From: Capitulum mitella
Lineage: Eukaryota; Arthropoda; Thecostraca; Pollicipedomorpha; Pollicipedidae
Length of the DNA: 64,000 bases
Assembly: GCA_030062745.1 (NCBI GenBank)
Contig: CP099840.1
Span: 2,232,001 to 2,296,000, forward strand
Reading direction: 5' to 3'
Positions 14,297-33,949 of this stretch are shown one piece after another (position 1 is the stretch's first letter; every line of letters starts with the position of its first letter). Below the pieces are notes generated by a model. The model was given only the letters and a program-made list of their open reading frames with translations. It did no database searches and was not told the DNA's origin. The position numbers were made by a program, and so were the translations under genes.

Positions 14297-14736
14297 GTGA
14301 GTACAGTCGTGCGGCATAGTTTCTGGTGCTATGGTCATAGGTCTGGTGCAACCTTGGGGCATGCCTTGGTCTCTCTCGTTTGTTCCGACCACTGACAGTG
14401 GAACACAGGGAAGTCTCATGCGTTAGGAATTCGGAAATGCGAAGTGAGGTGTACTAAGCTTAAATCTCCATACGTAACAATTTTACGCATTTTTTGCGAT
14501 GCTTAGAGCAAAAATCGGGCTGGGCAAAAACCATTTCGACTTTAAAATACTACGTACGAATAATTGGGAAAGGTGGCATACGATGAGACCACTGCGGAAC
14601 GACAACGCCCTCCACGGACTTGGAAACACAGTCAACCGACCACTCATCCGGCCCCGCGGGAGGGTCGCGCGGGGACTCACTCCATCCCGGCGGCCGACCG
14701 TTCTCCGGCGCTCTCGTCTCGGGAACCCGGCCGCCT
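14297..14736. other. Intron or 3' flank of flower without recognised exon
   Basis: The last Flower tail exon should be here or beyond, but no segment resembles it. Short ORFs on both strands are not supported. Confidence 0.35.
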
Positions 14737-14985
14737 GGCGGCGCGTCAGGTTCCGGAGAACACCGGCCGCCTGGCGGCGCGTCAGGTCCCGGAGCACACC
14801 GGCCGCCAGACGACGCGTCAGGTCCCGGAGAACGTCGGCCGCCTGGCGGCGCGTCAGGTCCCGGAGAACACCGGCCGCCTGGCGGCGCGTAAGGTCCCGG
14901 AGGACACCGGCCGCCTGGCGGCGCGTCAGGTCCCGGAGGACACCGGCCGCCTGGCGGCGCGTCAGGCCCGGGAGAGGACGCCAGC
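14737..14985 (+). repeat. 36-bp GC-rich minisatellite (about 7 copies)
   Basis: The unit begins GGCGGCGCGTCAGGTCCCGG and continues AGAACACCGGCCGCCT. Copies differ at a few bases. Because 36 is a multiple of three, several frames stay open on both strands and create artificial repetitive ORFs of 90-232 residues. Confidence 0.9.
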
Positions 14986-17273
14986 TCGGTGACTCACCGG
15001 GCCACGTGGGGTGACTGGCCGTCCGGCGACGCGGCCGGTCCGGGAGACCGCTCGCCCGGTGACAGACGGGCGTAAACAGGGGAACTTTTCCGGGACCCTC
15101 GACATCAGCAACGACACCGTCTGGTCGACTGGTACAGACCAGGCCTGGTACAGACCAGGCTGTCAGAGCCACCGGACACATGGGAAAACACGCCGAAAAT
15201 TGGCAGCGAGCGGGCGTAAACAGGGAAAACCTTCATGGAATCCTCAGTGTTGTCAACAACCTCAGTGTTGAACAGACAGTGATGTCAATGACAACACTGT
15301 CTCGATGACGGGAGCAGGACAGGTTATTAGAAGTACAAGACACAGGGACACGCCCGAAAACCTCTGACAGACTCACAAGTGCAGAAACTGCACCGTTCGC
15401 GCCACCTGCAGCCTGAACGTCCTCTCTCCCAACTTCAACACGACCTCGCGGCAGAAGCCCACCACCAGCGCCATCTCTGGGATCATGAACGTGGCTTGGT
15501 TTCAGTCGGTTAGGGCGCACGATCTCAGCTTTATTGATGCCTTCCAAAACACCCTGCAATTAAGTTCATCGATGCTCGCCACAGTCGCTGTGCGTTTCCG
15601 TGGCCTCAGAACTTGCACTATTGTCTCTTCGGAACAGCATTTCGGTAAAGAAAGACGAGATCACCTGGAACGTAAAAAAGTCGTCCAGCTTCTGCCGAAA
15701 GAACCTCTCATTCTGCCGGTGTCGGGCGTCGGAAACCTGCAGGGCAAGCCTATGTGCCAGTCTCAAACCCTTATACATATAATCCGGCACCGAGCGGCTC
15801 CGGCACACACGTGAGGGTGCCGGTTCACATCAACGGATAATCACGATTCGCGGGCAAACAAGAGAATGCGGCGGACCAATAATCCATAATCAGCAACGAA
15901 AGGTGCGAGTGCCACTCATCATGATTTTCATCTGCGTATTTTGCCAGCATGTTCAGCATAGTACGCACCATAAGCTCGGATTTTACAGTTTCCCACAGGA
16001 TGATAAGCATGGGCGTGTTTTTTGGAAACTAACTGTGGGTGCCCAAGACGCAAATGGGGACATCCAGACATTGCGTATCGGGGGAGGTCGTGACAGACCT
16101 TTTGTTAAGGTCAGAGAAGTGAATTTAAACAAGTATTACAGGGGTAAATTACAGAACGATGTGTTACGTAGATCATGGATGGCTTTACGGCGGCGACAAC
16201 CTTAAAGGGATTATAGCTGTTTTCCGGTATCCCAAAAACGCATTCCGGGGGACATTTAAGATTGGTTATGAATTATCATGCGAATGGAACGTGCATTTTG
16301 GCCATTTTAGACCATGAGTTCAAGCATTTTAGGTTCTGTCTTTATCGACAGTGCTATCGGTACGCGAAATACAATAACACAAAAGTAGGGAAAGGAACCA
16401 ATCAGCGGGCGGAAAATACGTAGGTAAACCCTGGACGCACCCGATGTTTGCCCAACACTGTCTTGGTTTACCAGACGCCGCTATAAACGGCAGCGACGAT
16501 TGTTTTGACAAACAGGAATAACGTGTTTCGACCTATTTACGTTATGCATACCTGCGGAGGAAATTTGTTGAACTGCAGCGGCACTTGCCTGATTCCATGA
16601 TGGCCGCCTTCATAATTTCGGCGTTCGCCAACTGTTGTCAGCTTCGACATCGCTGAGGCTAACGACACGTTACCAATTTTTATCGGTGATTTTAGTACTG
16701 AAAGGAAAGAAAATAGATTGAACTTGGGCTGGCAGCCAGCTTACTTTCCCCAGAAAAATATGAGCGAACGAGAGCGAGTTGGTAAGAATGAATGGTAGCC
16801 TATGACTCGATGCATAAAAATGTCCTATTCAGTCGTAGGAGTACAAGCTAAAAATCACGAAACCATGATGTGAATAAATACACTCCATTTAATGGAGGAC
16901 CTTACTCCAGGATCCGCATGACACAGTTTTACTTAGAGGTCGGTGGGGAAAAGCAGTTGGTGGGTGACAATGGAGTAAATAGTCTCTGATTGTTCCTGGT
17001 AAAGCTAATTTTAGGTGGTTAACGTCATGGGCCTAAGAACATAACTATATTTTAATATTTAAAAATACTCTGAGTTGTCGGCGTCCATAGGAATGTCGAT
17101 TTCTGTCAATGATCGGGGGGGGGGGGGCGAACCGAGGGCCCGGCAGCCTAACATTCCCCAAATGTGGGTTTCTGAACGGATTTAGCCCACTTTATTTTGA
17201 CCGACGGAAATTTACGTTTTTTTCTTACTATTTGTCAACTAAAAACGCATTTATTTCCATGCATACAGGCACA

Positions 17274-29635: not shown

Positions 29636-30610
29636 TACAGATCAACATACAGTGTTTCTTGGGATCGCGAGGCGACACCATTAACTCTGATTGGTCCAGC
29701 CGACGGTTTACGCCCCTTGCGTCATCGGTTTATGCCTCTCGTCCGACTACGCAGCCGTCTCGTATTGGCCGACATGACGTCATTTTTTGTACTTTCTGGC
29801 CTAGACCATTTCCGTTTGTAGGTGGTTTTTAAAGTGCGTCAGTTGAAGTCATGAAAGCTCACTCTGTTTTAGAACTTGTAACTGAAAGGTCTGCGTATAG
29901 TGTGGGTGATCGTGTAGGTGTTTGGTTTGCTGATTTACGTCAATAATAGAGGTTTGTACTTAGAAAATTTCCTGAATAGCTGATTTTGGAACTCACGAGG
30001 CCTCGCTTGAACGAGGTCGTCATTAGTACAACTATCACATACGCAGTCAGAAATCTGCTACACGGACTCAGAATGAAATAAGTCGATACCGGCATCAGTT
30101 GACATGATCGTTCCACAAAACTGTATGTGCCTGCACTAAAAAAACGAGGAGTAACAACAAACTAATATTTTATCCGCAGGTAAAATATCATTCACAAACA
30201 AAAGCTGCAAAAGATAACGGTCTATTAGATGAGACGCTGTCATTAAATAAGTAACGTAGTAAAGGTCTGTCGTAACCTGACGAAGACTACGTGGCAACAA
30301 ATGAGATCCTGTGCAGTGGCCGGAAGGATATGTATGATGTGTGTATGACGGAGCAGATGCGTCTTATGCTGATGTCCGAAAGCCAATTTAGTGAGCGCAT
30401 GTTTCGTTTTTTTCGGAGGCCCGTGGCGACACGCTCAGTTGTGCCTGGCTGTGCCGGTTCGTTTCGATGACGTATGAGCAACGCTCCCGGTGGCGCCTCT
30501 GATGACGAGTTTTGATGCTTCTCGGCGACGACACTGGATCCTTCCTCCCGAGCCCACGCCTTCCCCCCTCGACAGCAAGCCGGTGCACGTCGGCCCGGCT
30601 ATCGCGCGAC

Positions 30611-30645
30611 GATAAAGGCGTACTCGGGCCATGAGGCTCTCAGTC
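30611..30645 (+). promoter_or_regulatory. TATA box plus arthropod-type initiator
   Basis: GATAAAGG at 30,611-30,618 lies 31-24 bases before the A of TCAGTC (30,640-30,645, A at 30,642). This spacing and the TCAGT initiator fit an arthropod core promoter. It predicts a 256-base 5' leader before the ATG at 30,898. The leader is GC- and CpG-rich. Confidence 0.55.
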
Positions 30646-30897
30646 TCGACCGACGAGCAGCACCGTCACGTCACGGACCACAGAGCAGCGAGACAGCGGG
30701 AGCACGGCAGCGCTGCCTCGTACCGGATCGGAGAGAAGGGGGGCAGCGGGACCACGTGAGTCGAATCCGAGCCGACAGGTTCAGAGCTAGCGTCTCGGAG
30801 AACAGCGCGAGGAGTTCAGAAGAGAACGGGAGAACTCTGAGTCGCGCTCTCTCCGATTGAATACTAGCGAATCGTCCATCCAGGCAGCGACCCGACC

Positions 30898-31851
30898 ATG
30901 AGGCTGCTGCTGGCGCTGCTGGCGACGATGGCGGCCACCGCCACCGCCAGGCAAAAGATGGCTGAGAACGTCCTATTCGACCTCAAAGGCTCGATAATGG
31001 AGACGTTCGAGACCGACCGCGAGCTCAAGGAGCACGAGGTCCTCAAGGTCCAGTTGCACCCCATGGGCGAGAAGGACGCGCGTCCGACGACGGCGACCCC
31101 CGTCTGGCTCTGGGTGTCCACCCGGAACGCCGACCACTCGTGGAAGCTGCCGTGGCGGCCCGCCGGCGGCGCTCCCATGCAGTGGCTGGAGGTGCTGCTG
31201 TGCCAGAACCACCCGACCCTGCGCCTGCTGGCCGAGACCAACGCGACCATCGCGCTGCCGATGCGCTGGCGAGTTTCCACCGAGAACGTGGCGCTGGGCA
31301 GCGTGGCCACGATGAAGTCCTCGCCGGCCGACGTGTCGTACCGCGTGTTCCGCTGGCCGGACGACGGCACGCTCGAGGTCGAACTCAAGGTGGTCACGAT
31401 CCGGAGTGAGGCCGTGTGCGCCATGCTGGCGGTGACGCGCCGCTGCGTGACGCACCCGTACGAGCTGGCCGACGAACACCGGCTGCAGATGACGCGCTTC
31501 AGTTGGCGCGCACAGCTGACTGTGCGCCGCTCCGACGCGCCCGACGGCTTCTGGCTCTACCTGATCCCGGAGGTGGACAACACGCTCTGCCCGATGACGG
31601 CCGGCCGCGGCCGCGACCACCTGCCGCCGCCAGCCAAGACGGTGAAAGTGTATGTCGAGAAGCGCGCGTTCGAGGTCGGCGAACGGCAGCCGCCGCTGGC
31701 TGACTGGGGCGAACTGCCGTTCGGCCGCGCCGCCCCGGTCATCGGCGCCGACGGCGAGTGGGCCGACCCGATGCCGGCCGGCACCTGCAGCGAGAGGGTG
31801 GACCACCTGAAGCGGCAGCTGCAGCTGGAGCAGCAGCAGTGCGGCGTCTGA
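30898..31851 (+). CDS. SID-1/SIDT-like ectodomain protein, probably secreted (317 aa)
   Basis: SID-1 proteins bind and move dsRNA; their extracellular half is two beta-rich domains, followed by eleven membrane helices. This ORF matches the ectodomain. After a signal peptide (residues 1-17, LLLALLATMAATATA) come PVWLWVSTRNADHSWKLPW and VLLCQNHP (68-106; SIDT: PLLFVVRQ…VSFQVPL…RTLCQ). Next are VSYRVFRWPDDGTLEVELKV (146-165), CAMLAVTRRC (174-183; SIDT CSVISIQDVLC), LTVRRSDAPDGFWLYLIPEV (208-227; SIDT [20 protein letters not shown]), C231 and KTVKVYVEK (247-255). At the point where SID-1 enters the membrane, this protein has a ~60-residue hydrophilic tail ending in a short charged helix. There is one N-glycosylation sequon (N115). 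It is intronless, with very high GC at third positions. No SID-1 membrane exons lie downstream within 15 kb. It may be a duplicated, secreted derivative; the match is by eye only. Confidence 0.72.
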   Translation: MRLLLALLATMAATATARQKMAENVLFDLKGSIMETFETDRELKEHEVLKVQLHPMGEKDARPTTATPVWLWVSTRNADHSWKLPWRPAGGAPMQWLEVLLCQNHPTLRLLAETNATIALPMRWRVSTENVALGSVATMKSSPADVSYRVFRWPDDGTLEVELKVVTIRSEAVCAMLAVTRRCVTHPYELADEHRLQMTRFSWRAQLTVRRSDAPDGFWLYLIPEVDNTLCPMTAGRGRDHLPPPAKTVKVYVEKRAFEVGERQPPLADWGELPFGRAAPVIGADGEWADPMPAGTCSERVDHLKRQLQLEQQQCGV

Positions 31852-32676
31852 ACGCGCCGCGCGACGAGGTGGTGGCCTGCTTCGGATCCGCCGGCCGGAG
31901 AGGATGGAGCGACGGGGCGCCTTCTGAAGCGCAGCGCGCGCCGCCGCCACGAATAGGACAGGCTGGCGCGGCCTGTGCTTGAGCTAAGGACGGGGATATT
32001 AACATAGAGAACGGTAGCAAACCGAGGCTCAAAATGATTAGGTACGGTCATGAAAAGCCGCAAATACAGGACGTGGGCGCAGTGGTGGCGTCTCAACAGT
32101 TGCACGACAAGCTGTGGGTTGTTGTGCGCGGCGCGAACTTTTTACGTTAAGGTGCTTCGGTAGTTCAAAGGAATCTTCCCCGTTGTCTTTGAAACGTTTT
32201 ACGCTTCGCTTGTGTATGTGTGCCAATATAAGGGTCTGCTGTGATGTATTAATAATAACAATACAGTTGTAAGCCCAGTCTTACTCCTGCAAATCGCATT
32301 TATGCATACCTCTGGTAGTCCAACCAAAGAGGGCACTACGAGCTGGCTTAGTGGCAACTTGACCAGCCAGAGGGCGCCTTAATCTGCCTGAGAGCATCTT
32401 GAGTTTCCAGAGGTCACCAAAGTCAAGTCACCGAGCGGGTACCCTGCAATGTGAGAGGGGCATTTCAGTCTTCTATAGGGCGCTCAAAGCTGTCATTCTG
32501 AGCTGCCCAATGTCGGCCCTAAGCCGTCTATGTCGCGGTGGTATTTTTTATTTTTCGACACACATTTGAAGCATAGGCAAAGTAAGCATTGTCAACCCAC
32601 TGAAAAGTCATGGATTTTATAAAAAAGTGTTAGTTAAAAAAACAAAACAGTGATGTGTAGTTTTCAAACCAATTTC
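31852..32676. other. 3' flank of the SID-1-like gene
   Basis: No further exon is recognised and no canonical AATAAA close to the stop; ATTAATAATAAC near 32,250 is the best weak poly(A)-signal candidate. The GC-rich composition drops back to about 50% within 150 bases of the stop. Confidence 0.4.
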
Positions 32677-33880
32677 CTTATTTATCTATTTATTTATTTA
32701 CGTCATGGGATCATCCTCCAAAACATGACCGAGGCCACAGGGGCTGTTCTCGATCATGGGTCATCATACGTGAAGGGTACAAGGGGTAAGAGACACACAC
32801 ACGCAGTACACTCGTTTCACATGTCAAGGTAACTTTGTAAAAAAAAATGTTAAAAGAGAAAACTGCCACGTACGTTTATAAGTTGTCACAATAAGGTGCT
32901 GCTTCATCTTGCGTCTGAACAGTTGAAAAGACATGTCAGCGACGTCCGGTGGCAAGGTGTTGAACAATGAGGCGGCGCGGTGCACGAACTGCCTCTTTCC
33001 AGCCGTCTGACCACGGATGCGAGGCAGGCTGAGCAGGCGGTCCTGCCTGGTATGTCTTACGTGATTCACCTGTTCCCTGTTCAAACAAAACGATGCAGCA
33101 AGGTGCTCTGGTCCGCCTGTACAATGGATCCCATGAAATAACGTCAGCGTCTGGTGCTCAGACATGCTTTGGGAAGGGGGCCAGCCCAGGTTTTACCGCA
33201 CGGCCGAAATGTGCGCATGTTTTCTTTTGTCGGATATCATGCATGCAGCGAAACTGAAAATTTTCTGCACGGCAGCCACGTTTTTGGCCGAACCGTTTCC
33301 ATAAACTGTGAAACAAAACGGAACGTGAGAGAAAACCAGGGCAAAGACAACGACAGGAAGAGTACCGGGAGGGAGACAGCGACGCAGGTGGGAGATGCCA
33401 GTAAGAATTCCGAAACACTTCCGTGAAAGTTTGGAGATATGTGGTTCCTAAAAAAGAAAACGATCAAAAATGGCTCCAAAATTTTGAATTCAGTACCGGA
33501 ATTGATACGAGTATTCCGGAATTTTACAAAAAATGAAGGAAAGTTTCACTCATTCTGACGAGTTCCAAGGAGGATAAGCTCAAATCTTGATTCGTTGACC
33601 TTGAGACCATTTGAGCCAAAATACTCATCCAACGGAGCCAACACGGTCTCAAGGTCAGAAACAAGAGAAGAAAGCGCAGATTCTGAGCCAGTGACCAGAA
33701 CCTGAGTGTCGTCGGCGTATTGTACCGGAAGAGCACCGGCAGCATGCAAGCTGAGGTCTTTAGCAAAAACAGTAAAGAGCAGGGGTCCCTGGGGCGAAAC
33801 CTGGGAGACACCCTGGTTAATGGGTCGCAGAGGCGAAATCTGCCTGATATTGGAAGTGTTTGTAAAGCTCACACGTTCTG
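32677..33880 (-). mobile_element. 5'-truncated, decayed non-LTR retrotransposon (LINE)
   Basis: The - strand frame at 33,872-33,546 has reverse-transcriptase motifs: PQGPLLFTVFAKDLSLHAAG, the catalytic-type VQYADDTQVLV, and LDEYFGSNGLKVNESRFELI. The frame at 33,165-32,824 is the typical LINE C-terminal end: RQDRLLSLPRIRGQTAGKRQ, FVHRAASLFNTLPPDV, FRRKMKQHL. The element ends in a TAAATAAATAAATAGATAAA tail (32,677-32,701), as LINEs with microsatellite tails do. The stretch between the two coding parts is too short and unrelated, so material is missing or replaced. It looks Jockey/CR1-like, but the clade is uncertain. Confidence 0.85.
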
Positions 33881-33949
33881 AGTATGACCCGTGAGGTAAT
33901 TTTTAAACTATTCGGTTTAGCTGACAAGCTGTATACTGCAGCTTTTGCA

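Follow-up and report, generated by a model that had tools for sequence, protein, structure and literature searches.

The reading frame P0001 probably encodes a secreted paralog of SID-1 that consists of the ectodomain only, and its gene is present in two inverted copies; from the sequence evidence we give this reading a probability of about 0.6. That estimate covers anatomy and secretion together. Secretion, expression and mechanism are what we infer, and a reading in which the protein has a role unrelated to dsRNA shares the same anatomy, so the two probabilities overlap. The frame lies in the window (C2:2232001-2296000, the whole 64,000-nucleotide stretch of DNA that was analyzed) and is terminated by a stop; when the sequence was re-read, its extent, start, stop and length of 317 residues all matched what had been claimed in an earlier note on this DNA. 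The genome that was searched comprises 477,042,490 bases in 16 contigs, including C2, C3, C5 and C7. Features placed in the window are listed below.

30563..32090, + strand: block common to both copies, similar in size to a transcription unit; ends read off the alignment
30611..30645, + strand: core-promoter-like element, GATAAA ... TCAGTC, with A+1 at 30642; kept in both copies
30756..30761, + strand: donor-like GTGAGT in the 5' leader, a possible 5'UTR intron; the sole + strand GTRAGT in 30561-31900, the second copy being alike
30898..31851, + strand: P0001 coding sequence, SID-1-ectodomain-like, 317 aa; from the frame, the second copy, profiles and codon score
30898..30948, + strand: apparent signal peptide, residues 1-17; judged by eye
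30949..31287, + strand: BRD1-like region, residues 18-130; the part after C102 is 16-20 residues shorter than in relatives
31288..31671, + strand: BRD2-like region, residues 131-258
31672..31848, + strand: acidic hydrophilic tail, residues 259-317, in place of a membrane helix, with extra cysteines at 297 and 315; pI 4.5, no hydropathic segment

Several searches agree with the proposed membership of the SID-1 family, namely a Pfam match, a reciprocal relation with a gene on C5, and profile tests. PF13965 (SID-1_RNA_chan) was the sole Pfam match of P0001 up to E 10, covering residues 162-255 with 10.1 bits (E 0.28), which is below the gathering cut-off of 28.7; the profile search suggested in the earlier note as a check thus brought up no competing family, at a score short of the cut-off. 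When P0001 was compared with its own genome by tblastn, seven candidates were scored and three had E ≤ 0.001: itself, the second copy, and a stretch of C5 (C5:12562169-12562546; 30% identity over residues 132-257, E 3.3e-5). Reciprocally, the C5 ectodomain found both C2 copies (E 1.4e-5 and 3.4e-5) among seven matches at E ≤ 10, and with the second copy as query, two additional matches at E ≤ 10 were insignificant (0.93 and 7.3). When the profile of both copies was aligned with that of the C5 and C3 ectodomains using hhalign, the probability was 86.8 (E 4.2e-6, query 142-258). A hidden Markov model of the C5 and C3 ectodomains was applied to 2000 shuffles together with 1058 local ORFs, among them the copies, which it ranked first and second (23.5 and 22.0 bits, E 4.1e-6 and 1.1e-5), with 5.5 bits for the next best. 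After human SIDT1/2 stretches were added, the family model scored the copies at 36.2 and 42.3 bits, and the best of the P0001 shuffles (1928 of 3000 were reported) reached 7.6 bits.

The homology had been described as extending across both beta domains, which is well founded for one of them. Domain 2 (BRD2) scored 37.3 bits, a value reached by none of 3000 shuffles, and by sequence it is clearly SID-1; domain 1 (BRD1) is marginal, as two of 3000 shuffles reach its score, and is shortened. Residues C102, C174 and C231 fall in invariant columns, and C183 is offset by one. The CxxxxxxxxC pair pointed out previously is present, with eight residues between C174 and C183 vs. nine in the C5 and C3 paralogs and human SIDT1/2, its second cysteine being shifted relative to those relatives. 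A segment like the K-T-x-x-V-x-V reported before the first membrane helix of SIDT was also found, as KTVKV at residues 247-251; in the C5 paralog, KTVKV shortly precedes the first membrane helix.

Comparisons with known structures were less informative. A phmmer search of the PDB with P0001 alone returned two chains at E ≤ 10, neither of them SID-1 (2nuh, E 0.032; 6gvw, E 0.53); both were taken as chance matches, and neither recurs among the 16 that a profile search (A2 profile) gave at E ≤ 10. Because the C5 and C3 ectodomains were also used to build that profile, the SIDT matches it yields carry no independent weight for P0001. Single-sequence AlphaFold2 models had a pLDDT of 33 for whole P0001 and 44 for domain 2 alone, the latter with eight strands. 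Of 517 matches at E ≤ 10 in a fold search of the PDB with domain 2, not one reached E ≤ 0.001, and SID-1 was absent from the best 50; we consider this search uninformative, as the domain 2 model is poor, and such models neither support nor refute a SID-1 ectodomain fold.

The genome also encodes full-length SID-1 proteins. The C5 gene (L003:115-2634, - strand) is intronless and full-length, with an 839-codon frame and a PF13965 match at 2e-73; in its protein, PF13965 matches best over model positions 243-592 of 594, which correspond to the channel part. C3 carries another intronless full-length SID-1 (909-codon frame), and the SID-1 gene on C7, at about 3788-3799 kb, is spread over many stretches, as by introns. 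Together, the loci L019:1700-4102 (+), L003:115-2634 (-), L020 and L021 form a small expansion of two intronless SID-1 genes and a split SIDT-like gene on C7. Compared by eye, the SACYHVCP of human SIDT1 reads SGLYAACP in the C5 protein and SGLYHFCP in the C3 protein. One histidine of the proposed zinc core, placed by eye with the published description (PMC11194109), seems to be lost from C5 and kept in C3. The C5 protein resembles P0001 in domain 2 (30%, 132-257), in KTVKV, in three aligned cysteines and one shifted, and in its intronless frame; unlike P0001, which stops after a 59-residue tail, it goes on into the hydrophobic PF13965 channel.

There are no 19-residue windows of hydropathy 1.6 in either copy of P0001, N-terminal stretch included, in contrast to ten such segments in the C5 protein and nine in the C3 protein by the same greedy count, the first of each being in the ectodomain. 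What follows KTVKV is the first helix in C5, and in P0001 the 59 residues of acidic hydrophilic tail. PF13965 has no match on C2, as all 14 of its genome matches, from 14 candidates scored, are on C3, C5 and C7. Hydropathy and the PF13965 search of C2 both indicate that the multipass part with its H3-S-D core is absent from P0001, and from these two results we take P0001 to be only an ectodomain paralog, not a SID-1 channel. The earlier description of a hydrophilic tail followed by a stop, with no channel, has held up in both copies, each of which keeps the stop.

The second copy is located at C2:2341678-2342628 on the opposite strand and has 92% identity over 317 residues (tblastn against the own genome), so that two inverted copies lie approximately 78 kb apart on one contig. 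A DNA search with 30560-32100 gave two candidates, which are the two copies; this region aligns with C2:2341427-2342963 (-) at 94% over 1539/1541 bases. Identity between the copies is about 95% in the coding part, and equally so in the leader and over the 200 bases of 3' flank that come first. Beyond the 30563-32090 block the alignment is full of gaps and identity drops to approximately 40-83% per 100 bases, a good part of which is noise of the alignment. We considered whether the second copy could be an assembly haplotig and ruled this out by reasoning, as it is inverted, about 78 kb off on the same contig, and has diverged flanks. Since the flanks are conserved like the coding part, the identity between the copies owes much to recent exchange or duplication and not to selection. 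Our own reading is that the duplication may be old and may have been followed by gene conversion across the 30563-32090 unit. The sharp block edges and the equal preservation of leader, coding sequence and near 3' flank suggest that conversion was confined to the transcription unit.

Coding differences between the copies amount to 45 of 954 bases, without gaps, and are distributed 12/10/23 over the codon positions; start, length and stop are all kept. Copy-vs-copy dN/dS was 0.51 (NG86), 0.42 (LWL85) or 0.19 (YN00), and when the observed substitutions were placed at random, 32.6 amino-acid changes (sd 2.7) were expected, vs. 24 seen (P 0.0018). Selection on the whole protein is thus supported, if not strong. 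In the tail (259-317), three of four nucleotide changes alter an amino acid (dN 0.0229, dS 0.0230), and nothing indicates that this part is under selection by itself.

Codon usage was scored after training on the C5 and C3 SID-1 genes. Over the whole coding sequence the P0001 frame scores best (0.275 vs. 0.064 for the next frame); its score is positive in all four parts, including the tail, and the leader and the 3' flank score below zero in each of their six frames. For residues 1-18 an antisense frame scores higher (0.558 vs. 0.443 for the P0001 frame) and for the tail it is nearly equal (0.195 vs. 0.252); in these two parts codon usage fails to single out the P0001 frame. ORF length was dismissed as weak evidence for coding because 9.35% of 2000 composition-matched Markov sequences were open for 327 codons or more in one of the six frames. 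The region is GC-rich (0.667), and the antisense strand at the locus is also open, with a 336-codon frame. The N-terminus of P0001 is hydrophobic with a cleavage-like A-T-A at its end, which agrees with the signal peptide claimed before, on a judgment made by eye.

These results bear on two readings in which P0001 is not a complete gene of its own. It is unlikely that the ORF belongs to a longer gene as one of its coding exons, spliced to a membrane-spanning or other exon. The PF13965 search would miss exons of other families, the tail is without selection of its own, and the codon contrast to the antisense frame there is weak, all of which would fit such a gene; yet the stop is common to both copies, PF13965 is not matched on C2, and there is no GTRAGT donor inside the coding sequence, where other GT donors are possible. 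The description of the gene as intronless applies to the coding part only, as the leader of both copies has the donor-like GTGAGT (30756 in the window). When the 27.7 kb after copy A were compared with the 26.6 kb after copy B, blastn found six shared pieces, three of them on one B stretch, and tblastn of 306 plus-strand frames gave nine matches, four on that same stretch; the shared pieces look like repeats, which also speaks against a longer gene, and splicing of the P0001 frame to a later exon seems unlikely from the sequence. It is more improbable still that P0001 is a decaying SID-1 pseudogene fragment, open by chance in GC-rich DNA. Random sequences open as long at the rate given above, 32% of simulated divergences are without an internal stop, and the flanks are conserved like the coding sequence, as decay would allow; the deficit of amino-acid changes (P 0.0018), the codon usage of the whole coding sequence, and the retention of start, length and stop argue against it.

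For a secreted ectodomain-only paralog, the most likely origin would be an intronless SID-1 gene that lost its channel part. P0001 may act outside cells to modulate dsRNA uptake of the SID-1 type, either by binding dsRNA in body fluid or through its ectodomain pairing with the full-length SID-1 proteins of its own genome. We take this as the most likely mechanism, tentatively and at slightly less than an even chance, and derive it from the literature. That a SID-1 ectodomain can exist free is physically plausible, since insect cells secrete the human SIDT1 ectodomain as a protein that is stable and tetrameric alone (PMC3324469). The purified worm SID-1 ectodomain binds dsRNA, those of mouse more weakly, as described in PMC11194109. 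In crustaceans, SID-1 proteins have a part in taking up dsRNA, and across phyla RNAi ability goes along with serum proteins that cause a gel shift (PMC7554946); RNAi ability itself varies among crustaceans (PMC7554946). A bolder version, in which P0001 would be a natural soluble dsRNA receptor, with the RNA-gripping half of SID-1 cut out, duplicated, and secreted to serve as carrier or decoy and so to set the reach of environmental or systemic dsRNA, is doubtful.

Alternatively, the secreted SID-1-derived protein could have a role unrelated to dsRNA, such as lipid or sterol handling or the binding of another ligand, which we regard as possible, at roughly one chance in three. In worm SID-1, domain 1 does most of the dsRNA anchoring (PMC11194109), and this domain is the poorly kept part of P0001. 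The SID-1 paralog CHUP-1 does not transport dsRNA, so members of the family need not do so (PMC5714486). For P0001, dsRNA binding and the carrier, decoy or sensor function proposed in the earlier note are hypothetical. Nothing direct speaks against a role unrelated to dsRNA; an indirect point against it is that, by residue counts, the two P0001 domains combined have a slightly positive net charge, whereas the C5 and C3 ectodomains are negative. The mature protein as a whole is slightly negative, which counts against the main reading.

Known systems resemble P0001 in part. The ectodomains of human SIDT1 and SIDT2 (chains such as 8k11 and 8k1b) share with it the domain order and several proline, aromatic and cysteine landmarks in profile alignments; they differ in belonging to multipass proteins, and P0001 is 16-20 residues shorter after the domain 1 cysteine and has two extra tail cysteines. 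In C. elegans SID-1, too, a pair of beta-rich domains lies outside the membrane (PMC11194109); its chains are absent from the 16 A2-profile matches at E ≤ 10. The recombinant SIDT1 ectodomain is free and secreted, as P0001 is predicted to be, but is man-made (PMC3324469), whereas P0001 is seemingly genome-encoded. Serum dsRNA-binding lipoproteins carry dsRNA in body fluid, a role that P0001 might share, but are a different kind of protein (PMC7554946). We found no natural secreted or ectodomain-only SID-1 among the open-access SID-1 papers listed, and other genomes or journals may contain one; as judged from its sequence, P0001 is a putative new architecture within a known family. How extracellular dsRNA travels in animals with open circulation is poorly understood. 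If the reading is correct, a free, genome-encoded SID-1 ectodomain would add a testable extracellular component to the way dsRNA travels, would offer a natural tool protein with which to capture dsRNA, and would demonstrate that the ectodomain of SID-1 is able to evolve separately from the channel.

Upstream of the gene, the clear TATA/Inr promoter claimed in the earlier note was not upheld: the element reads GATAAA, not TATAAA, and the combination of GATAAA and TCAGTC, which has one match in the window vs. 0.13 expected, occurs at least once in 12 of 100 shuffles. The consensus of the downstream promoter element (DPE) is RGWYV, and no match to it was found at the P0001 promoter-like element.

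Elsewhere in the window, ten ORFs were scanned against Pfam, eight of which were without a match. A reverse-transcriptase fragment is present at 33549-33902 (-), with an RVT_1 match of E 9.6e-6 and 25.9 bits vs. a cut-off of 29.6. The ORF at 14486-15181 (-) matches MgtE_N (31.4 bits, cut-off 25.9) and FliG_M (29.1 bits, cut-off 25), which is odd in an animal genome and perhaps reflects low complexity.
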